Of a stretch of 64,000 bases of DNA, positions 27,643-36,570 are shown one piece after another (position 1 is the first letter of the stretch; each line of letters starts with the position of its first letter). The stretch is from contig NZ_JAHCLT010000003.1 in assembly GCF_020005165.1 (NCBI RefSeq), positions 248,001 to 312,000 on the forward strand, in the 5' to 3' direction. This DNA is from Kangiella taiwanensis. Lineage in GTDB: Bacteria; Pseudomonadota; Gammaproteobacteria; Enterobacterales; Kangiellaceae. The position numbers and the translations under genes were made by a program. A model generated the notes under the pieces. That model saw nothing but the letters and a program-made list of their open reading frames with translations. It made no database searches and was not told the DNA's origin.

Positions 27643-28074
27643 ATGAGTTCTATGAGCAAAGTATCGATACTTAAACCTAGGGGCAGTTATTCTGAGATCC
27701 CGTTATATTCAGGCCGCGTATCTGCAGGTTTTCCAGGTGTTGTAGACGAACACATGGAAGACTCGCTCAGCCTAGATCAGCTTCTTATACAACACCCAGC
27801 CACTACATTTTTCGCCCGTGTTGAGGGAGACTCCATGATCGAGGCGGGTATATTCCAAAATGATATATTGGTCGTTGATCGCTCAGTTTCAGCCAAGGAT
27901 AATGATATCGTTGTTGCCTTACTCGACAATGAATTCACGGTTAAACGCTTAAAGTCCCAAGGGACACTGAAATTAAAAGCTGAAAACCCAAACTACCCTG
28001 ATATTGAAGTTACCGGAGAGCATGAACTGGTTATTTGGGGTGTTGTTACAGGGTTAGCAAGGAGCTTGCGCTAG
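27643..28074 (+). CDS. umuD: UmuD-like translesion polymerase subunit (S24 LexA-type autoprotease)
   Basis: 143 aa. Self-cleavage site AG in RVSAGFPG (about residue 28-29), nucleophile Ser in VEGDSMIEAGI (about 65) and catalytic Lys in EFTVKRLK (about 102), all as in UmuD. RecA-stimulated cleavage would give UmuD', which activates UmuC as polymerase V. A second in-frame ATG three codons later (27652) could also be the start; neither has a clear ribosome site. umuC overlaps its stop codon by one base. Confidence 0.93.
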   Translation: MSSMSKVSILKPRGSYSEIPLYSGRVSAGFPGVVDEHMEDSLSLDQLLIQHPATTFFARVEGDSMIEAGIFQNDILVVDRSVSAKDNDIVVALLDNEFTVKRLKSQGTLKLKAENPNYPDIEVTGEHELVIWGVVTGLARSLR

Positions 28075-29330
28075 TGATTCAAACTAATGATGTCACTTAT
28101 GCACTGTGCGATGTTAATAGCTTTTATGTAGCATGCGAGCGCTTATTTCGACCAGACCTTCGAAACAAACCCGTTGTTGTTCTAAGTAACAATGATGGTT
28201 GTGCTATCGCTATGTGTGACGTTTCAAAGTCACTCGGTATAAAAATAGGCACACCTTACTTTCAAATTAAACACTTAATAAAGCAATATGATATTGAGTG
28301 GTTTTCCTCAAATTACGGCCTTTATGGCGACATTTCTCAACGTTTTAACTGGGTATTGCAACAATTTACTGACAAAGTCGCCCCCTACTCAGTCGATGAG
28401 TCTTTTCTTATTTTCCAAGGTATAGCCGATAATCTTGAAACTCACTGCCAACGCTTAAAGCAAACCGTTTGGGACTGGCTGTCATTACCTATCTGTATTG
28501 GTCTTGGCCCTACAAAAACATTAGCTAAAGTCGCCAACCACTATGCTAAAAAGCATAAACAGTCAACCAATGGCGTCGTTGATTTACGAAACCAAACTCA
28601 CCGCCAATGGGCACTAGAACGTTTAGCCGTCGAGGACATATGGGGAGTTGGACGACGTTTATCCCAAAAACTAAAACTTCAAGGCATCCACACCGCTTGG
28701 GATCTTCATAACTGTGATTACAAAACATTACAGCGTATGTTTTCAGTCAACATGGAGCGCACAATTCTAGAGTTGCGCGGACAACCTTGCTTCGCATTTA
28801 GCGAGCAACCTGAACCCAAGCAATCGATCCTTAATTCCCGCTCATTCGGTAACCCAATATCGAGTAAGCAAGATTTAAAAGAAGCGCTCGCCTATCACAC
28901 CACTCGCTGCTGTGAGAAATTGCGTAAACAGTCTTCTTTGGCAAATAGTATCCAGTTTTTCTTGCGTACACGCCATGGCGATCACCCAAGTGCGACCTTG
29001 TCATTGACCGAGCCAAGCGATGATACCAGTCTATTTTTGAGTGCTATTGAGCAAGGCCTGAATCGAGTATACGACTCATCAGAAGTGTATAAGAAAGCAG
29101 GTGTTATGCTTTTTGGTTTAGAGCCGAGCAAAGGGTATCAAAGCGATATCTTTAATCAAACACAGCAGCGACCTGAGTTAATGCAAAGCCTAGACAGCAT
29201 TAATGCTAAGTACGGGAAAGATGCTATTAAGTTTGGAAGTCTTGGTTTTGATAAACGTTGGGCTATGCGCGCCAATGCTCGCTCGCCACACTACACCACC
29301 CAGTGGACTGATATTATCCGCTTAAAGTAG
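28074..29330 (+). CDS. umuC: UmuC-like translesion DNA polymerase (Y family)
   Basis: 418 aa from a GTG at 28074, sharing one base with the umuD stop (taGtg) and preceded by AGGAG nine bases upstream; longer in-frame starts lie inside umuD. Palm motifs ALCDVNSFYVACERLF (Asp metal ligand, about residue 11) and YSVDESFL (about 102-109) hold the catalytic carboxylates; the helix-hairpin-helix region LAVEDIWGVGRRLSQKL (about 188-204) and the little-finger domain follow. Error-prone bypass synthesis in the SOS response is the family role. Confidence 0.95.
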   Translation: MIQTNDVTYALCDVNSFYVACERLFRPDLRNKPVVVLSNNDGCAIAMCDVSKSLGIKIGTPYFQIKHLIKQYDIEWFSSNYGLYGDISQRFNWVLQQFTDKVAPYSVDESFLIFQGIADNLETHCQRLKQTVWDWLSLPICIGLGPTKTLAKVANHYAKKHKQSTNGVVDLRNQTHRQWALERLAVEDIWGVGRRLSQKLKLQGIHTAWDLHNCDYKTLQRMFSVNMERTILELRGQPCFAFSEQPEPKQSILNSRSFGNPISSKQDLKEALAYHTTRCCEKLRKQSSLANSIQFFLRTRHGDHPSATLSLTEPSDDTSLFLSAIEQGLNRVYDSSEVYKKAGVMLFGLEPSKGYQSDIFNQTQQRPELMQSLDSINAKYGKDAIKFGSLGFDKRWAMRANARSPHYTTQWTDIIRLK

Positions 29331-29416: not shown

Positions 29417-31183
29417 CTAGATTGCTTCTGCGCGTTGTTTAGGAATTTGATGCCCCATAAGTTGGTAATACAAACCTTCTTTATACCTCCTCAGCTCAGC
29501 ATGAGTTCCCTGCTGCACAAGAGTGCCTCGGTCTAACACGACAATCCGATCAGCCTTTTCGATCGTCGAGTAGCGATGCGCAATCATGATCGTCGTTCTA
29601 TTTTTCATTAAATTATCTAAAGCCTGCTGAACCTTCAGCTCACTTGCGGAATCAAGTGCACTGGTCGCTTCATCTAAAATCAATATTTTTGGATCACGTA
29701 ATAGTGCTCTAGCAATTGTAATTCTTTGCTTTTGTCCTCCTGACAGCTGAACTCCTCTCTCCCCAACCACTGTCTGGTATCCACTGGGGAAACTTTCGAT
29801 AAAGTCATGAGCAAAAGCCAACTTTGACACATGCACTATGTCATCATAAGTAACCTCATCACTCACCGCTCCGTAAGCGATATTGTCGTAAATTGTACCC
29901 GAAAATAAAGAAGGTTCTTGCTCGACGATTGAAACGAAACTTCTCACATGATCAGCACCAATCCGATCAAAAGACTGACCATCAAATAAAACGCTTCCCT
30001 CATCGGCACGATAAAAGCCCAAAATTAAACTGGCTATTGTCGACTTCCCGGCCCCGGATGAGCCGATAAGAGCCACTTTTTCACCAGAGTTGATGGACAT
30101 AGAAAAGTTACTTAGGGCTTTTGTTTCAGGTCTCTCTGGATAAGAGAATGTCACACCCTGAAAGCTTATATTGCCTTCTAGATGAATATCTTTGGTTGGC
30201 TTATGCGTTAAACTTGGCTGAGCAGACGGAGAGGATTCAATAATCTCAAAAATCCTATCAGTCGCACCAATGGTTCTCATCCAGTCACTCCAAAAGTCAC
30301 TAACCGCTCCCGCAGAGCTTGCAACCATTGCTGAGTAAATTACAAAACTGGTAAGCTCACCGACGGTTAAAGCACCTTGTAAGATTTGTGTCGCACCTAT
30401 CCACAAAGTAATAAGCAAAACAAAGTATGTTAAGAACGAAAAAGTTCCCTGAAAAGTCGCTAAAAACTTGGTGCAGCTTTTTGCAATATCTAAAGCTACG
30501 TTAATACTACTTTTATAGTTCGTTTGAGCTGTAGACTGGCGATTAAAGGCATGAACTAACTTGATATTAGAAAAGTTCTCATGAGCAACTTTACTCGCGT
30601 CAGCTTGAGATTGCTGAATATTCTTTGAGCGCTCTCTGACGTTTCGCCCTACCCACTTACCTAGGAGCAAACTTACCGGAAGGAAAATTAATAAAACGAT
30701 GCTCAATATCGGAGATGTTAAAAGCAACATAACAACTCCACCAACACAGACACATAGCGAGCGTAATGAAATTGCCAACCCCATAGTCAAAGTGTCTTGT
30801 AAAACTTCTACGTCAGCAGATAGTCGGTTGGTCAACTCACCGATATTATGTTTATCGTAAAATCCGATATTCTGTTTAAGAAGAGCTTTATGCAGTTTTT
30901 GTCGAATTCTAGCAACCACCATCAGTCCCGTAGACTCAAACACATAGTAACGTAGAGCTGTGGCTAAAGAATGTACTGTCAGCACAAGCAACATAATACC
31001 CGCAAATCCAGCATACCAAGCAGTCGTTCTGGTCACATCCAAGGTATCAATAAAGTGTGAGACAACTTTTGGGTACAGCAGCTGAATCGCTACCGTGACA
31101 ATCATCACTGTCACGCCAATGATAAGTCTTTTGGCAAAAGGTTTAATCAATTCTAACCGTTTGAGGTGAACACTTTTATTCAC
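29417..31183 (-). CDS. ABC exporter of the RiPP cluster (membrane plus ATPase domains, no peptidase domain)
   Basis: 588 aa: about six membrane helices in residues 1-310, then an ATPase domain with Walker A GSSGAGKS (about 380), signature QLSGGQKQR (about 485) and Walker B ILILDEATSALD (about 505). It is the homodimeric MsbA/BmrA type. Unlike many RiPP exporters it has no N-terminal C39 peptidase domain; the protein starts directly with the membrane part. Its ATG overlaps the stop of the thioredoxin gene by four bases, so it is the last gene of the operon that begins with the precursor peptides. Its proposed role is export of the matured peptide. Confidence 0.88.
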   Translation of the reverse strand: MNKSVHLKRLELIKPFAKRLIIGVTVMIVTVAIQLLYPKVVSHFIDTLDVTRTTAWYAGFAGIMLLVLTVHSLATALRYYVFESTGLMVVARIRQKLHKALLKQNIGFYDKHNIGELTNRLSADVEVLQDTLTMGLAISLRSLCVCVGGVVMLLLTSPILSIVLLIFLPVSLLLGKWVGRNVRERSKNIQQSQADASKVAHENFSNIKLVHAFNRQSTAQTNYKSSINVALDIAKSCTKFLATFQGTFSFLTYFVLLITLWIGATQILQGALTVGELTSFVIYSAMVASSAGAVSDFWSDWMRTIGATDRIFEIIESSPSAQPSLTHKPTKDIHLEGNISFQGVTFSYPERPETKALSNFSMSINSGEKVALIGSSGAGKSTIASLILGFYRADEGSVLFDGQSFDRIGADHVRSFVSIVEQEPSLFSGTIYDNIAYGAVSDEVTYDDIVHVSKLAFAHDFIESFPSGYQTVVGERGVQLSGGQKQRITIARALLRDPKILILDEATSALDSASELKVQQALDNLMKNRTTIMIAHRYSTIEKADRIVVLDRGTLVQQGTHAELRRYKEGLYYQLMGHQIPKQRAEAI

Positions 31184-31740
31184 GCCTGCGCCTCTGAGTC
31201 AATACTGCTAATTTGCTCTACAAAAACTTGCCAATCACTATCCCCTATGGTTCCAAAGCTTTGTAGCTGCCTATCATGGTCAACAAACAAGTAAAATGGC
31301 GATGCTAGTGACGGATTGAGCTTTTTGTAATCTTTTCGACTGGTGATAAAAACCCTGTGTAATAAAGAACTATCTTTCAAAAAATGCATTAACCTAGGTT
31401 TAGACTCTGTCGAAATTAGTCGAATATCCACTCCTGCCCTTGGAGCATGCGAATCTATATGCTCAATCTCTGGAATTTTTTCCTTGCAAGTAGGACACTT
31501 ACTAGAAAGAAAGAGTAAAACAACAGGCATACCTTCAGTAGCGACATTGGTCACTTGATTTCCGAGCAAGTTTCTAGCAGAAATCGGAGGCAAGACTTCC
31601 CCAATCGGAACTGGGTGAGCATCTTTAACATTAAGCGATGGATTATTAATAATTTTGTAAAGCCCTAACGTCAAATGTAAATTCAGCAGCGTTAGCCCTG
31701 CCAAGATTACTAAAGAAAACAGAACAAGAGACTCTGACAT
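31180..31740 (-). CDS. Membrane-anchored TlpA/MauD-like thioredoxin protein
   Basis: 186 aa. One N-terminal membrane segment (residues about 5-27) followed by a thioredoxin-like domain facing the periplasm. Active-site motif CPTC (Cys82, Cys85) in VLLFLSSKCPTC, with a cis-proline-type region further on (SLASPFYLFVD). MauD- and TlpA-type proteins exchange disulfides in the periplasm. The gene shares one base with the stop of the MauE-like gene and overlaps the ABC gene by four bases. I infer that it forms or isomerises a disulfide in the exported peptide, both precursors having two conserved cysteines. Confidence 0.85.
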   Translation of the reverse strand: MSESLVLFSLVILAGLTLLNLHLTLGLYKIINNPSLNVKDAHPVPIGEVLPPISARNLLGNQVTNVATEGMPVVLLFLSSKCPTCKEKIPEIEHIDSHAPRAGVDIRLISTESKPRLMHFLKDSSLLHRVFITSRKDYKKLNPSLASPFYLFVDHDRQLQSFGTIGDSDWQVFVEQISSIDSEAQA

Positions 31741-32270
31741 TATACTTTTCCTCTAGCAGTTAGAAGCACCATAAAAATGTCATGAGTATGGATAACCACT
31801 GTGCTACCAGCGAGAGCAAGGATGACCAGCAAAAATTGGGAGTGCATAGTCAGTGATAATTCAAAGCCACCCATCACTAGATAACAACCAATAAATAAAA
31901 TTATCAGGGCATTTCTTAATAGGTCAAATACAGAAACAGGTCTATCATCTTCACCAAAGCAACTACACTTAACCCTTGCATTTTGCAGCCAGTGATATGC
32001 CAAGAAAGCAGTGAATACGATAAATACCACAAAGCTTACGACCATTGCTAGATAAGTGAACTGGGTTCCGCTGACAGTTGTTAAAGCTAATAAAAACTCT
32101 AACACAATGATAAGTGGCGCCACGAACTTACTACCGGGGGCTGAAAAACCGAAAGAGTCTCTCAAATTAGATTTAAAGCGGTGCAAATCTTTTAACTTTC
32201 CCCATGCAGCCATGAGTAAAGTAAAAGCAACCAGCCAAGAAACAGTAAACAAAAAGTAACTTAACATCAT
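31740..32270 (-). CDS. MauE/DoxX-like redox-associated membrane protein
   Basis: 176 aa with four to five membrane helices (about residues 5-22, 50-68, 73-92, 115-137, 145-160). The CSCFG motif (Cys102, Cys104) after the third helix is typical of MauE, the membrane protein that works with MauD in methylamine dehydrogenase maturation. No methylamine dehydrogenase genes occur here, so it has probably been recruited to the peptide pathway, passing electrons to or from the TlpA-like protein. It overlaps the protease gene by four bases. Confidence 0.85.
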   Translation of the reverse strand: MMLSYFLFTVSWLVAFTLLMAAWGKLKDLHRFKSNLRDSFGFSAPGSKFVAPLIIVLEFLLALTTVSGTQFTYLAMVVSFVVFIVFTAFLAYHWLQNARVKCSCFGEDDRPVSVFDLLRNALIILFIGCYLVMGGFELSLTMHSQFLLVILALAGSTVVIHTHDIFMVLLTARGKV

Positions 32271-33139
32271 AGCGATTCAAGCGTGCCCCATTGAGGTAAC
32301 AATCCATTACCAGGATTGCTCCGTATTTGGCTAGACTCCTTGCTTATTATCAAAGCATCACTGTAGGGTTCATCAATCGATTGTCTAACACCGCCCCCAA
32401 TAACACTTTGAATAGTGACTGAAATTTCCCAAGCAAGCTGTTCTACATCGTTATTGCTCTGACAGTTTAATCCAAGATCTGACATCTCTTCTTTAGTGAT
32501 CGCATAATGATGTGAGTGATACTCATACATTAAATGCTCGACGATCTTCGAGCGTACGAGTGGTTCATCACTAGGTAACTGGTAAGATAACAGCTCTTCT
32601 GCTATTGCTTGTGTCTCTCTTGCCGTACGATAAAACGCTGTTAACGTAGGTGGAAATATACTATTGCATAATAATGACACTTGCTCAGCATTCGCCTGTT
32701 CCGGATCCACTCCAAACCATTCTTCACACATTTGCCCAAACTGTTTAATGTCAAGACACGAAAGTGCTGAATTACCATCACCTACCCCACCGTGTAAATG
32801 CGGATCAATAGGAGTAAATATAGCCAAATCACCCGCGATTATTTCGTCGCCCGACAAAGCCAAAATAGTGCCAGACGACTCACAATAATATGGAACAATG
32901 AAGTTTACAGTTGACGCATATTTTCTGAGGAGTAGAGCAATTCTTCGGGCGGTATTAACAACCCCTCCTCTGCTGTGTATTAAGACATCAAGCGTGTCAA
33001 CTTTACCAATAACGTCTAACTGGTTCTTTAGCGCCGGTAATAACTCATTATCTAAGTGAGAAGCCGCCAATATCAATACGCGGCTGTTTCGCAAGCTTTC
33101 TATTTTCTTAATATGCTGCAGAACGTAAATACTGCTCAT
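32267..33139 (-). CDS. Clp-fold serine protease of the SDH (serine dehydrogenase proteinase) type, candidate leader peptidase
   Basis: 290 aa, no signal peptide. The ClpP/crotonase-like fold is recognisable from VDTLDVLIHSRGGVVNTARRI (residues 47-67, given by position with key SRGG oxyanion loop 56-59) and ESSGTILALSGDEI (87-100), where Ser88 (or Ser89) is the likely nucleophile. FTPIDPHL (108-115) matches the following family motif. This is the cytoplasmic SDH-proteinase family related to SppA. In this operon, where the transporter lacks a peptidase domain, it is the best candidate to remove precursor leaders. Its start lies inside the end of the ATP-grasp gene (32-base overlap), which suggests translational coupling. 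Confidence 0.82.
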   Translation of the reverse strand: MSSIYVLQHIKKIESLRNSRVLILAASHLDNELLPALKNQLDVIGKVDTLDVLIHSRGGVVNTARRIALLLRKYASTVNFIVPYYCESSGTILALSGDEIIAGDLAIFTPIDPHLHGGVGDGNSALSCLDIKQFGQMCEEWFGVDPEQANAEQVSLLCNSIFPPTLTAFYRTARETQAIAEELLSYQLPSDEPLVRSKIVEHLMYEYHSHHYAITKEEMSDLGLNCQSNNDVEQLAWEISVTIQSVIGGGVRQSIDEPYSDALIISKESSQIRSNPGNGLLPQWGTLESL

Positions 33140-34139
33140 TATCTTCTCTAAAATTCTTAATTAATGTATCTGCAACGGTCTCTAAAATATTGAACTCTGG
33201 GATCAACTCCTGAATATATAAAAATTGGCCGTTTGGGTTATTCTCTAAAAAAACATAGTCTTCATCTGGAGTGACGATGATATCCATTGCACTATAGTTT
33301 AAGCCATAGCTCTTCACGAACTCCAAACAGCGCTTGTGTATAGAGTCAGGTAAAGCCGTTGCTTCATAGCGTATTTCCGCAGACATGTCGCGTGAGTCTA
33401 CCTTTGTCCGCTCATCATCTTGGGAATAAAGTTTAGCTGCAAAAACACTATTGCCAACAACCGTCACCCTCAACTCATACTTTTTAGGAATGTACTCTTG
33501 GAAGTGACAAGGTATTTCACGAACAGCCTCAAGATTGTTCATTAACTCATCTGTGACAATCGTGGTCGCAAGCCCGGTAGCAATGCAATCGTCATCATCG
33601 ACTTCAACACTAGCTAAGTCGGGTGTAGATAAGGACTTAAAAATAATATCCCCAGATATTAGACTCTTAAAACGGCGTACCTCTGCGGGGCAGTTAGTGA
33701 CTAAGGAATGAGGAATGCGAAAACCAAATTGAGTAGCTCTATTGAGCTGCTCACCTTTCCACATTGCGCCTCTAAGGTTTACGGGGTGGCTCATCCAATA
33801 ACAGTCCAAAGTGTATAACAGACCAAAAAGTGTATGCTCTGTTTCTGTTTTGGCAAAAGCGAGCTCTTGGGGAGCTAGGTCATTGCTTATAAAAGAAAAT
33901 GGTGCTGGCTTTCTATTCCATACAGCACCGATATCTTCAAAATGAATGATTTGTTTAGATAAAAGGTGCTCAATAGTTACTTCGACCTTCCCTGACACAT
34001 ATAGCTGTTTAAGATGATAATCTTTTGGAAACTTATCCAAATTCAGTCTAAAGAAGGATTGATTTTTCTGCTTTAGTATTGGTTCAATTAAATCAGCATG
34101 CAAGTCAAAACTATTAGTTATAATTAGTATCGTTTTCAT
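33108..34139 (-). CDS. ATP-grasp ribosomal peptide maturase (MvdD/graspetide-synthetase-like)
   Basis: 343 aa from the ATG at 34139; an in-frame upstream start would only add hairpin-encoded residues. The pre-ATP-grasp opening MKTILIITNSFDLHAD (1-16) and FFRLNLDKFP (about 34-43) match the MvdD/MvdC class. An ATP-binding segment with Lys (DIIFKSLSTP, about 163-172), LYSQDDERTKVDSRD (about 225-240) and the metal-binding ENNPNGQF (299-306) follow. Such enzymes activate Asp/Glu side chains with ATP and join them to Ser/Thr (ester) or Lys (amide) in a precursor peptide. It follows two precursor genes after a hairpin and overlaps the protease gene. Confidence 0.88.
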   Translation of the reverse strand: MKTILIITNSFDLHADLIEPILKQKNQSFFRLNLDKFPKDYHLKQLYVSGKVEVTIEHLLSKQIIHFEDIGAVWNRKPAPFSFISNDLAPQELAFAKTETEHTLFGLLYTLDCYWMSHPVNLRGAMWKGEQLNRATQFGFRIPHSLVTNCPAEVRRFKSLISGDIIFKSLSTPDLASVEVDDDDCIATGLATTIVTDELMNNLEAVREIPCHFQEYIPKKYELRVTVVGNSVFAAKLYSQDDERTKVDSRDMSAEIRYEATALPDSIHKRCLEFVKSYGLNYSAMDIIVTPDEDYVFLENNPNGQFLYIQELIPEFNILETVADTLIKNFREDNEQYLRSAAY

Positions 34140-34153
34140 TATATTCACTAAGT

Positions 34154-34180
34154 GCCTTGGCTTTTCAGCCAAGGCTTTTT
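34154..34180. promoter_or_regulatory. Perfect 9-bp hairpin between precursor genes and ATP-grasp gene
   Basis: GCCTTGGCT (34154-34162), loop of four, AGCCAAGGC (34167-34175). In the operon's direction (minus) it lies 10 bases after the second precursor stop and 14 bases before the ATP-grasp ATG, with an A/T-rich stretch before but no T run after it. It is therefore more likely a partial terminator, processing site or RNA-stabilising 3' end, favouring precursor over enzyme expression. On the plus strand it is followed by five T. Confidence 0.65.
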
Positions 34181-34185
34181 ACTTC

Positions 34186-34359
34186 TTAACAAATTACGCC
34201 TTGTTCACGGCCCCAACGATCGTATCCACGTAATTCCCAGCCAGTGCAGCCAGCTGTAGATACGCCATCACGTACTTTCCACTGTTCCTGAGTCTTGATT
34301 GACTGGGACTTCGCAGATATTTTGAACGCGAATAATTTGGTTTCGTTCTTTTTGTTCAT
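34186..34359 (-). CDS. RiPP precursor peptide 2 (57 aa)
   Basis: Small gene with AGGA seven bases before its ATG. The leader contains KLFAFKIS (8-15) and EQWKVRDGVSTAGC (25-38); the C-terminal part contains TGWELRGYDRW (39-49) and GREQGVIC (50-57). It is a clear paralogue of the upstream peptide: residues 8-13 and the segment EQWK-x-RDGVSTAGC are identical apart from x, while residues 41-49 differ, the pattern of fixed leader and variable core. Candidate cross-link residues for an ATP-grasp enzyme are Thr39 with Asp47 or Glu52. Cys38 and the C-terminal Cys57 are conserved in both peptides. Directly upstream of the ATP-grasp gene. Confidence 0.9.
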   Translation of the reverse strand: MNKKNETKLFAFKISAKSQSIKTQEQWKVRDGVSTAGCTGWELRGYDRWGREQGVIC

Positions 34360-34397
34360 TATATTTTCCTTCAGGTTATGTAATTTGTGGGTTTCGA

Positions 34398-34574
34398 TTA
34401 GCAGTAAATGCCTTGGTCTCTACCACGGTAATAATCATCCGCTCGAGAAAACATGCCTGAACAACCTGCAGTTGAAACGCCATCTCGCGCTTTCCACTGC
34501 TCACTTGATTGTACTTGTTGTGTTTTTTCTGACACTTTAAAAGCGAATAATTTTGCTTCATTTTGCTTTTTCAT
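34398..34574 (-). CDS. RiPP precursor peptide 1 (58 aa)
   Basis: Small gene with a strong ribosome site (AGGAG six bases before the ATG) and a consensus promoter upstream. It starts MKKQNEAKLFAFKVSEK; the middle is SSEQWKARDGVSTAGC (23-38) and the variable end SGMFSRADDYYRGRDQGIYC (39-58). It is paralogous to peptide 2, with 38 bases between them. The LFAFK element may be the docking site for the ATP-grasp enzyme, by analogy with the PFFARFL leader motif of microviridins; this is inference. Ser39, Asp47 and Asp53 match the hydroxyl and acidic positions of peptide 2; Cys38 and Cys58 are conserved. No signal peptide, so export needs the ABC protein. Confidence 0.9.
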   Translation of the reverse strand: MKKQNEAKLFAFKVSEKTQQVQSSEQWKARDGVSTAGCSGMFSRADDYYRGRDQGIYC

Positions 34575-34628: not shown

Positions 34629-34658
34629 ATCCTAACCTCCATAAATAAAACTTGTCAA
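34629..34658 (-). promoter_or_regulatory. Promoter of the RiPP operon
   Basis: Read on the minus strand: consensus -35 TTGACA (34653-34658), 18-base spacer, -10 TAGGAT (34629-34634), about 55 bases before the first precursor ATG. The spacer is one base longer than ideal, but the -35 box is perfect. Confidence 0.65.
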
Positions 34659-34777: not shown

Positions 34778-35488
34778 ATGAGCCAAGAAATATTTTTACT
34801 AGATCAGTCAGAAAAGTTTCCTCCTCCATACCTTGCACAGGAAAACCCCAACGGTTTACTAGCTGTCGGTGGCGACTTATCACAATCTCGGTTAATCGAG
34901 GCTTATAAAAATGGAATATTCCCTTGGTATTGTGAGGGAGAACCCATCTTGTGGTGGTCTCCAGATCCGCGCTGTGTTTTTTTACTCGATAACATCCATA
35001 TATCCCGCTCAATGAAAAGAGCACTAAAAAAATCCACTTACACTGTCACGCTAAACCAATCATTTGAAAACGTCATTGAAGGTTGCGCAGCACCACGAGC
35101 AAAAGAGGCTGAAACTTGGATACTCCCTGAAATGAAGGAAGCATACCTGCAGCTATACAAGAGTGGCTACGCACACTCAGTAGAAGTTTGGCACAACGAC
35201 AGGTTGGCTGGGGGACTCTACGGGGTCAGCCTTGGTAGGTTCTTTTTTGGTGAGTCCATGTTTAGCACTGAACCCAATGCTTCAAAATTTGCATTAATCT
35301 ACCTTTCTCATTACTTAAAACAGCAGGGATTTTTGTTGCTCGATAGTCAAGTCGGTAACCCCCACCTGTATCGCATGGGCGCGATTGATTTGCCACGGCA
35401 AGAGTTCTTAGCATTAATCGAAAAACACATTGATTGGCAACAGCCTCAACAAGTATGGCAGCCAAAAACTTTAGAGGACTGGTCTTAA
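34778..35488 (+). CDS. aat: Leucyl/phenylalanyl-tRNA--protein transferase
   Basis: N-end-rule enzyme that adds Leu or Phe from aminoacyl-tRNA to proteins with N-terminal Lys or Arg, marking them for ClpS-ClpAP. 236 aa, full length. Seen: GLLAVGGDLS (about 26-35), AYKNGIFPWY (43-52), the WWSPDPRCVF motif (59-68), LAGGLYGVSLGRFFFGESMFS (about 145-165, key GGLYG and FFGESMF) and LLDSQVGNPHL. The genes bpt, clpS and clpA nearby belong to the same degradation pathway. Confidence 0.96.
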   Translation: MSQEIFLLDQSEKFPPPYLAQENPNGLLAVGGDLSQSRLIEAYKNGIFPWYCEGEPILWWSPDPRCVFLLDNIHISRSMKRALKKSTYTVTLNQSFENVIEGCAAPRAKEAETWILPEMKEAYLQLYKSGYAHSVEVWHNDRLAGGLYGVSLGRFFFGESMFSTEPNASKFALIYLSHYLKQQGFLLLDSQVGNPHLYRMGAIDLPRQEFLALIEKHIDWQQPQQVWQPKTLEDWS

Positions 35489-35529
35489 AAAGAGTGACAA
35501 AGCAAGGTGATGAGTAGTAACCTAACTGT

Positions 35530-36249
35530 ATGAGTCAGAAAGAAAAAGTTACTCAACACATTCGTTTATTTCGCGGCCCAGAGCACGCGTGTGGCTACCT
35601 TGATGATCGCATTGCTGTTTCAGTATTTGCCGATCCAAGCATACTCCTCAATAACGACTTATACTCAGAACTCAGCCGACAAGGCTTCAGGCGAAGTGGA
35701 GAGCATGTCTATCGTCCACATTGCCCTGGGTGTTCAGCGTGTTGGGCATATAGAGTTCTAACCGATAAGTTTCAACCCTCACGAAGTCAAAAGCGCGTCC
35801 TCAAACAAAATAACGGTTTTGAGGTAACTCTCGAACCTGCCGACTGTTTCGAAGAAGACTACCAACTGTATCAACATTACATCAGTCATCGCCATAAGGA
35901 TGGCGACATGTACCCCCCATCCAAGCGCCAATATGCCGATTTCTTGTTCTCAGAGTGGTGTGATACCGCCCTCCTACGCGTACGTGACCAAGGTAAGTTA
36001 ATTGCTGTTATCTGTTTAGATGTTATGGACGATGGCCTTTCTGCTGTTTACTCTTTTTTCGACACATCACCCAGCTATAAAAGTTTAGGTGTATTCGTGA
36101 TTCTTAAAGCTATAGAACACAGCCAAAAGATGGGCCTCCCTTTTTGCTATTTAGGTTATTATGTTCAGGGGTGTCAAAAAATGGAGTACAAAATCAAATA
36201 CCGGCCAGCGCAAGTATTTAAAAATAACCGCTGGTTAAGCCTAGATTAA
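35530..36249 (+). CDS. bpt: Aspartate/glutamate leucyltransferase
   Basis: Bacterial ATE1-like transferase that puts Leu on N-terminal Asp or Glu, feeding the ClpS-ClpAP route. 239 aa. N-terminal ATE-N domain with the cysteine motif YRPHCPGCSACWAYRV (about 58-73), C-terminal ATE-C domain with YQHYISHRHKDGDM (about 117-130), YSFFDTSPSYKSLG and YYVQGCQKMEYK near the end. Sits 41 bases after aat and before infA, a common gammaproteobacterial order. Confidence 0.95.
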   Translation: MSQKEKVTQHIRLFRGPEHACGYLDDRIAVSVFADPSILLNNDLYSELSRQGFRRSGEHVYRPHCPGCSACWAYRVLTDKFQPSRSQKRVLKQNNGFEVTLEPADCFEEDYQLYQHYISHRHKDGDMYPPSKRQYADFLFSEWCDTALLRVRDQGKLIAVICLDVMDDGLSAVYSFFDTSPSYKSLGVFVILKAIEHSQKMGLPFCYLGYYVQGCQKMEYKIKYRPAQVFKNNRWLSLD

Positions 36250-36351
36250 GCAGAAAGTGGTAAAATTCTTTGCGATTATGGGCTAAATGAGGCATGATAC
36301 GCCCATTTTTTAGATATCTTGTTAATTGATTTCACAGGAGAGAGTGGCCGA

Positions 36352-36570
36352 ATGGCGAAAGAAGACGTAATTGAACTAGAAGGTAAAGTTCTAGAAACCC
36401 TACCAAATACTATGTTCCGAGTTGAACTTGAGAATGGTCACATTGTGACAGCTCATATTTCAGGCAAAATGCGTAAAAATTACATCCGCATTTTAACTGG
36501 TGATAAAGTGACGGTAGAAATCAGCCCTTACGATCTATCCAAAGGTAGAATTACCTTCCGTGCGCGTTAA
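36352..36570 (+). CDS. infA: Translation initiation factor IF-1
   Basis: 72 aa from the ATG at 36352 ([19 protein letters not shown]), the invariant family start; a longer in-frame start at 36319 lies in the leader. Single OB-fold S1-type domain with [20 protein letters not shown] and [13 protein letters not shown] (shown by these key segments), ending KGRITFRAR. Binds the ribosomal A site during initiation. GGAGAG ribosome site upstream and a terminator downstream. Confidence 0.98.

Follow-up and report, generated by a model that had tools for sequence, protein, structure and literature searches.

A stretch of 64,000 nucleotides from Kangiella taiwanensis (contig NZ_JAHCLT010000003.1, positions 248,001 to 312,000, assembly GCF_020005165.1, 2.56 Mb), here called the window, was analysed around seven genes lying at 29417-34574 on the minus strand. 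An earlier note, made from the letters alone, had described these genes as an operon for a graspetide-like ribosomally synthesised and post-translationally modified peptide (RiPP), with two short peptides, an ATP-grasp enzyme, an SDH-type protease of the Clp fold, a MauE-like and a TlpA-like protein and an ABC exporter. The coordinates of the open reading frames (ORFs) bore out position and strand for all seven, and the annotation of every protein was upheld by Pfam and NCBIfam profile scores and by comparison of the precursors (Table 1). The genes had also been called overlapping. This was correct for the enzyme and transporter genes, whose overlaps are 1 to 32 nt by coordinates (ATP-grasp/SDH 32 nt, SDH/MauE 4 nt, MauE/TlpA 1 nt, TlpA/ABC 4 nt), but not for the peptide genes, which overlap neither each other nor the enzyme genes (gaps of 38 nt and 46 nt).

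Table 1. Features of the operon and its upstream region, with positions in the window.
Feature	Positions	Strand	Description	Basis
Precursor peptide 1	34398..34574	-	58 aa, LFAFK leader, predicted 21-aa core with Cys at both ends	ORF, alignment
Precursor peptide 2	34186..34359	-	57 aa, leader as in precursor 1, predicted 20-aa core with single Thr	ORF, alignment
ATP-grasp peptide ligase	33108..34139	-	343 aa, graspetide synthetase superfamily	Profiles, structure matches, tree
SDH-type Clp-fold serine protease	32267..33139	-	290 aa, predicted leader peptidase, invariant S88, D112, H210	Profile, alignment, model
MauE-type membrane redox protein	31740..32270	-	176 aa, invariant C102 and C104	Profile, alignment, model
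TlpA/MauD-like membrane-anchored thioredoxin-fold protein	31180..31740	-	186 aa, invariant C82 and C85	Profile, alignment
ABC exporter half-transporter	29417..31183	-	588 aa, no C39 peptidase domain found	Profiles
Hairpin between precursor 2 and ATP-grasp gene	34154..34175	-	9-bp perfect hairpin	Folding against shuffles
Putative sigma-70 promoter	34629..34658	-	TTGACA-18-TAGGAT, ~55 nt upstream of first peptide; weak evidence	10/12 matches

The ATP-grasp protein scored 52.9 bits against ATPgraspMvdD PF21068 (cut-off 27), which places it in the superfamily. The earlier assignment to the MvdD class stands at that level and fails at the level of the MvdD equivalog TIGR04184 (208.3 bits, curated cut-off 475). 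Scores were also below the curated cut-offs of the MvdC equivalog TIGR04185 (178.1 bits, cut-off 425) and of GRASP_SAV_5884 TIGR04187, the best NCBIfam match (217.2 bits, cut-off 350). Homology to solved ATP-grasp ligases extended over the full length (CdnC 7mgv, E 1.9e-42; 5ig9, E 9.3e-39). The start codon is most likely the ATG at 34139 and not the TTG at 34172, because relatives align from the former. The SDH protein scored 60.2 bits against SDH_protease PF01972 (cut-off 31.3) and 70.7 bits against the family equivalog NF047768, under its curated cut-off of 250. Its structure model (predicted local distance difference test, pLDDT, 92.2) gave 346 Foldseek matches at E <= 0.001 (best E 2.6e-5), with matches to ClpP, a stomatin-specific protease and SppA. 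S88, D112 and H210 were invariant in 33/33 aligned rows (33 of 36 available sequences) and by position form a putative Ser-Asp-His triad. MauE PF07291 was matched at 79.8 bits (cut-off 27). The TlpA-like protein scored 35.2 bits against AhpC-TSA PF00578 (cut-off 26), and its 24.4 bits against the MauD equivalog TIGR02661 fell short of the curated cut-off of 188.6. The CxC of MauE was kept in 33/33 aligned rows and the CxxC of TlpA in 25/25 (34 sequences available for each), and the two proteins are fused into one ORF at two loci (L020, 8865-9821; L027, 8856-9866). Both ABC_membrane and ABC_tran models scored above their curated cut-offs in the exporter.

The two short peptides had been called paralogous, and they are 60% identical. 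Precursors were searched for with a profile built from five peptides, yielding 68 ORFs in the 36 loci defined below. One ORF was dropped for want of the leader motif, leaving 67 rows and 66 distinct aligned precursors. The dropped ORF (L031, 6757-6906) is a Shewanella precursor whose frame lacks the motif kept by the near relatives L030 and L032, and is a broken or misassembled copy. Core residues were not selected for in the choice of rows, yet are contained in the search profile itself. The 66 precursors share a nearly fully conserved core pattern, AGC[ST]...[DE]xGxxC: A47, G48, C49 and C84 are each present in 66/66, position 50 holds Thr in 40 and Ser in the other 26, position 79 holds Asp in 64 and Glu in the other two, and G81 is kept in 65/66. 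With the core defined as C49 to C84 (17 to 33 residues), exactly two Cys occur in 64 cores and three in the other two, and none in any leader. A single Ser/Thr is found in 21/66 cores, always at position 50, and a single acid in four, always at position 79; 52 cores have no Lys. The set thus has what is expected of graspetides, a neighbouring short precursor with a conserved leader and a core holding Ser/Thr/Lys and Asp/Glu. From the lone Ser/Thr, the lone acid and the two Cys, the simplest product would be an ester between S/T50 and D/E79 nested within a disulfide between C49 and C84, and leader cleavage would most likely fall at the invariant Ala-Gly. For the cores predicted to be set free in this way, calculated neutral monoisotopic masses are 2462.020 (linear) and 2441.994 (ester plus disulfide) for precursor 1, and 2383.095 and 2363.069 for precursor 2.

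Mean column entropy across paralogs was 2.77 bits in the loop and 0.67 in the leader motif. Two Massilia-group loci (L014, 4922-6938; L015, 4920-6938) carry nine consecutive paralogous precursor ORFs ahead of one ATP-grasp gene, with loops very different between fixed ends. The pooled ratio of nonsynonymous to synonymous substitution rates (dN/dS) for their nine ortholog pairs was 0.18 in both leader and core, which gives no sign of positive selection on the loops between these two loci. Together with the retention of the gene set across phyla, these values argue that the precursors are real coding genes, beyond chance. No further precursor was found in the window's own genome.

A search with ATP-grasp patterns through 84,980 species genomes returned 33 loci, a lower bound because the search depends on two short peptide patterns. 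Adding the window and the relatives L009 and L010 gave 36 loci. Two with a contig end shortly beyond the ATP-grasp gene (L028, L029) and an outgroup at 34% identity (L045) were set aside, leaving 33 for counting. The same genes in the same order were found in Pseudomonadota, Flavobacteriaceae, Myxococcota and Chloroflexota. The earlier note had asked whether the genes stay together: SDH is present at 32/33 loci (absent in L026), MauE with TlpA at 31/33 (absent in L018 and L026), and an ABC gene lies within the fetched stretch at 30/33 (not L026, L027 or L041), divergent and upstream in L034, L038, L040 and L044. It had also taken ATP-grasp genes found mostly without the peptides as a sign against its reading; inside the clade the opposite was seen, with precursor-like ORFs at 33/33 loci (31 recognised with the profile, and L040 and L041 through the LFAF leader motif). 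No SDH, MauE or TlpA was found in 11 control loci whose ATP-grasps are more distantly related (L011-L013, L071, L081-L087; L087 is cut by a contig end). Several control loci are annotated with peptidase-domain ABC transporters, unlike this family, in which no C39 peptidase domain was found in the ABC proteins of the window and seven scanned relatives. In a midpoint-rooted tree of 52 ATP-grasp rows, with several long branches, the 34 core-family rows form one clade (support 100/99). This adjoins a group of four Chloroflexota rows and the Deinococcus row L071 (98/85), and all 39 rows together are supported at 100/98.

The membrane side of the redox pair was considered from charge patterns. With start codons chosen by script, 36 TlpA proteins carry on average 2.36 Lys/Arg in the 15 residues after the hydrophobic stretch and 0.14 before it; the count is higher after than before in 34/36 and lower in one. 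In MauE, the CxC loop and the first loop hold 2.33 and 2.15 Lys/Arg, against 0.12 and 0.24 in the other two. By the positive-inside rule these patterns suggest, weakly and as a lead, that the reactive sites of both proteins would face the cytoplasm. The topology argument is weakened by the greater length and acidic content of the Lys/Arg-rich MauE loops (1.76 and 1.61 acids) and by the C-terminal tail, which is expected on the same side and is not positive (0.42 Lys/Arg, 1.03 Asp/Glu). The window's genome holds one or more additional MauE genes that pass the cut-off and 10 Redoxin matches, the operon TlpA included, five of them with CxxC. Among the four other CxxC proteins, L125, L128 and L130 carry positive residues before the hydrophobic stretch, as exported domains should. 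L127 has none before and a positive stretch after it, resembling the operon TlpA, so the pattern is not unique to the latter. A VKOR-like mechanism found no support from the fold: the MauE model (pLDDT 92.7) had 0 PDB Foldseek matches at E <= 0.001, and VKOR structures matched at E 2.0 and 3.6.

Cys content was compared with the presence of the pair in relatives. At four Chloroflexota loci with MauE/TlpA (L040, L041, L102, L105), the candidate precursors contain between 4 and 8 Cys. On the Deinococcus plasmid pDrdI (L071, 5672-5887 and 5992-6885), a sister-branch ATP-grasp gene stands with an annotated LFAF-leader peptide that is rich in Ser/Thr/Asp/Glu and has no Cys, and no SDH, MauE or TlpA was found within 12.9 kb. 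Two loci of one Chloroflexota genome (L103, 6470-11474; L104, 1633-7863) hold MauE/TlpA, Cys-rich short ORFs, S26-type peptidases (PF10502 above cut-off) and ABC genes but no ATP-grasp gene, and are possibly a separate disulfide-rich peptide system with the same redox module. The occurrence of MauE/TlpA beside Cys-rich ORFs, with or without ATP-grasp, would fit a reusable disulfide module.

We regard it as reasonably probable that the operon as a whole makes a graspetide-type RiPP, a hairpin with one ester inside one disulfide, by SDH leader cleavage, MauE/TlpA oxidation and ABC export. What the sequences show directly is the gene set in its constant order, the clade, and the invariance of the catalytic and core residues; from these we infer every reaction and the sequence of reactions, the point of cleavage and the export. 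The LFAFK leader would dock on the ATP-grasp ligase. This enzyme would form a side-chain ester between the Ser/Thr directly following the conserved Cys in AGC[ST] and the conserved Asp/Glu of [DE]xGxxC, which stands five residues ahead of the final Cys. The SDH-type protease would then cut off the leader, most likely after Ala-Gly, exposing an N-terminal Cys and taking the role that the C39 domain has in other graspetide exporters. MauE/TlpA would oxidise both Cys, so that the ester would lie inside the disulfide and the variable loop would sit in a doubly stapled hairpin, to be exported by the ABC half-transporter.

The protease could instead serve self-protection or be a copy of the target, with a housekeeping enzyme removing the leader. 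According to the available text of two papers, the serine proteinase genes close to group 9 graspetides are perhaps housekeeping duplicates that give self-resistance (PMC13097080), and many graspetide clusters lack a protease of their own (PMC13039773). We think such a role improbable here: the SDH gene adjoins the ATP-grasp gene at nearly every locus, overlapping it in the window, its triad is fully kept, and the scanned exporters are without a C39 domain. The S26 peptidases beside Cys-rich peptides at the two Chloroflexota loci without ATP-grasp also look as if the protease slot were exchangeable. The ligase, for its part, could form another bond, for example an amide from the N-terminal Cys to D/E79 (a lasso-like ring), an ester at D/E42 or a Cys thioester; the predicted cut would free the Cys amine, and D/E42 is conserved in 59/66 precursors. 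Against this, a lasso-like ring has no need of the invariant Ser/Thr at position 50, D/E42 is replaced by Q, A or N in the other 7/66, and the characterised ligases of the superfamily make side-chain esters and amides, as described in the available text of PMC8939145 and PMC9576775. A different bond is accordingly given a low probability.

TlpA-type proteins are often reductants, and the pair could keep the Cys reduced, repair wrong disulfides or serve another redox step. The available text of PMC7794033 only speculates that MauE acts in disulfide formation, calling the function of MauD unclear, and the function of the MauE family is itself only inferred there. Nevertheless, the exact pair of Cys in nearly every core and their absence from leaders, together with the greater number of Cys in Chloroflexota candidates with MauE/TlpA and none in the Deinococcus relative without it, make a reducing or unrelated role unlikely. 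The operon might finally be an ordinary member of a catalogued graspetide group such as group 9, which likewise has a serine proteinase gene beside the graspetide synthetase, in over half of its members (PMC13097080, compared by description only). This is possible, if on the doubtful side: as far as the available text of PMC8939145 goes, group 9 core motifs cluster with those of groups 8 and 11 under one shared leader and the ATP-grasps are described as an actinobacterial branch, whereas none of the family loci found here is actinobacterial. This family may nonetheless overlap with those group 9 graspetides that have a serine proteinase.

Several observations weigh against the proposed ester-plus-disulfide hairpin and its maturation by the operon's own enzymes. 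The links of SDH and of MauE/TlpA to the precursors consist in gene association only. MauE/TlpA is missing at L018, and both MauE/TlpA and SDH are missing at L026. Rugamonas aquatica, from which L018 comes, has a complete cluster as well (L100). L026 comes from a Lysobacter assembly that also holds the full L034 and is a metagenome bin that may be mixed. Conservation of the leader motif is partly due to selection, as F[AT]F was required of precursor rows. The reactive acid is pinned down by 4/66 cores only, the conserved D/E42, just ahead of the predicted cut, could also react, and four cores end with an Ala after the last Cys. The Chloroflexota candidates were picked by the LFAF motif and by eye, without a chance control, and do not fit the core pattern; the same search also gave several unrelated ORFs. 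No immunity gene was recognised.

A bolder form of the proposed pathway seems rather unlikely. In it MauE and an N-out, C-in TlpA would take thiol electrons at the cytoplasmic face, making the disulfide before export on a hairpin already closed by the ester, the operon's Clp-fold protease would free the N-terminal Cys, and the same module would serve Cys-rich peptides with S26 peptidases in Chloroflexota. Were it true, the family would be a natural, exchangeable display scaffold with a fixed ester-plus-disulfide stem and a variable loop.

Compared with known systems, the operon is probably a new-looking variant within the known graspetide class, not a new class, and as a group it may already be catalogued. 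It shares with microviridin and chryseoviridin (MvdC, MvdD, CdnC) a short precursor with a conserved leader motif and a full-length homologous ATP-grasp. It differs in its own ATP-grasp clade, in the leader motif (LFAF here, PFFARFL there), and in having one predicted ester, two Cys, SDH, MauE/TlpA and an ABC protein in which no C39 was detected. Stem-loop graspetides such as fuscimiditide are alike in the predicted hairpin, nested cross-links and tolerant loop (PMC12291112, available text), but the outer staple here is a predicted disulfide and no PIMT-type methyltransferase was seen in the window operon. The main text of the group 9 paper (PMC13097080) mentions none of MauE, thioredoxin, disulfide, Clp or SDH. 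In Streptomyces, decRiPPter candidates likewise place MauE, in one case together with MauD, next to predicted Cys-rich precursors; in the available account (PMC7794033) those precursors have at least 8 Cys and are separate from that paper's ATP-grasp families, and SDH is unmentioned. NosP of class I microviridins is likewise a dedicated non-C39 graspetide leader protease, but a metalloprotease (M1) encoded 0.8 Mb from its cluster according to the available text (PMC13039773), whereas the Clp-fold serine protease lies within the operon here. Table 1 of graspetide-associated families in PMC8939145 lists no MauE, TlpA or SDH. Unusual features here are the in-operon SDH protease, predicted to stand in place of C39, the MauE/TlpA pair and the two-Cys core with one predicted ester. 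No description of this gene combination was found in the open-access literature, a scope outside which the main 2020 and 2021 graspetide surveys and their supplements fall, and within that scope nothing contradicts the earlier note, to which no described graspetide system with both an SDH-type protease and a MauE/TlpA pair was known; the leader string had no match there, and disulfides as a built-in graspetide feature are absent from the parts of the open-access accounts surveyed.

The gene set is rare. In a first search a close ATP-grasp was found in 1/19 same-genus relatives (G013) and 2/98 other genomes; a phylum-wide sample gave 0/397 others and three more distant matches. A close ATP-grasp was also present in 14/74 genomes of one Massilia-group genus, with the neighbourhood examined in G827 only. 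In the window the operon lies between a umuC-like gene and aat, splitting the umuD/umuC-like pair from aat and its neighbours (27643-29330 and 34778-36570). The two genes are side by side in 6/17 same-genus relatives having both, and not adjacent in the other 11. The gap between them is 46 to 128 bp in G004, G008 and G018, 1.0 to 1.1 kb in G006, G009 and G014, and 5.45 kb here. G013, the sole same-genus relative with the operon, carries it at a different site. Together with the mixed phyla in the tree, these observations indicate that the operon has moved horizontally. Composition gives no sign of recent transfer, as the operon, with a G+C fraction of about 0.40-0.43, is not set apart from the DNA around it; synteny does give one. 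Because the operon is patchy and horizontally moved, with variable loops and up to nine paralogous precursors per locus, it most likely serves competition between bacteria or signalling among them, which is the least certain step of the proposal.

The putative promoter of Table 1 is the best -10/-35 match ahead of the operon, but 14 promoter-like sites were counted in the region against 12.1 in shuffles, so there is no excess. The hairpin ahead of the ATP-grasp gene had z = -3.7, with 2/200 shuffles folding equally well. A T-run follows it on the plus strand only and none on the operon strand, so it is perhaps an attenuator or an RNA-processing element. SOS control was considered and rejected: the window holds 14 LexA-like boxes against 24 expected, with none at the operon promoter, and its two exact matches both lie inside a TonB receptor gene.

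Graspetide leader proteases are mostly unknown, and if the proposed pathway is true the class gains from this family a new type of leader protease, encoded in the operon itself. The family would also supply a disulfide module specific to the peptide and a compact hairpin, doubly stapled and variable in its loop, and MauE/TlpA-type pairs would gain a small, defined substrate for measuring redox direction. With its LFAF leader and AGC[ST]...[DE]xGxxC core, the predicted hairpin family would be easy to mine and to test.

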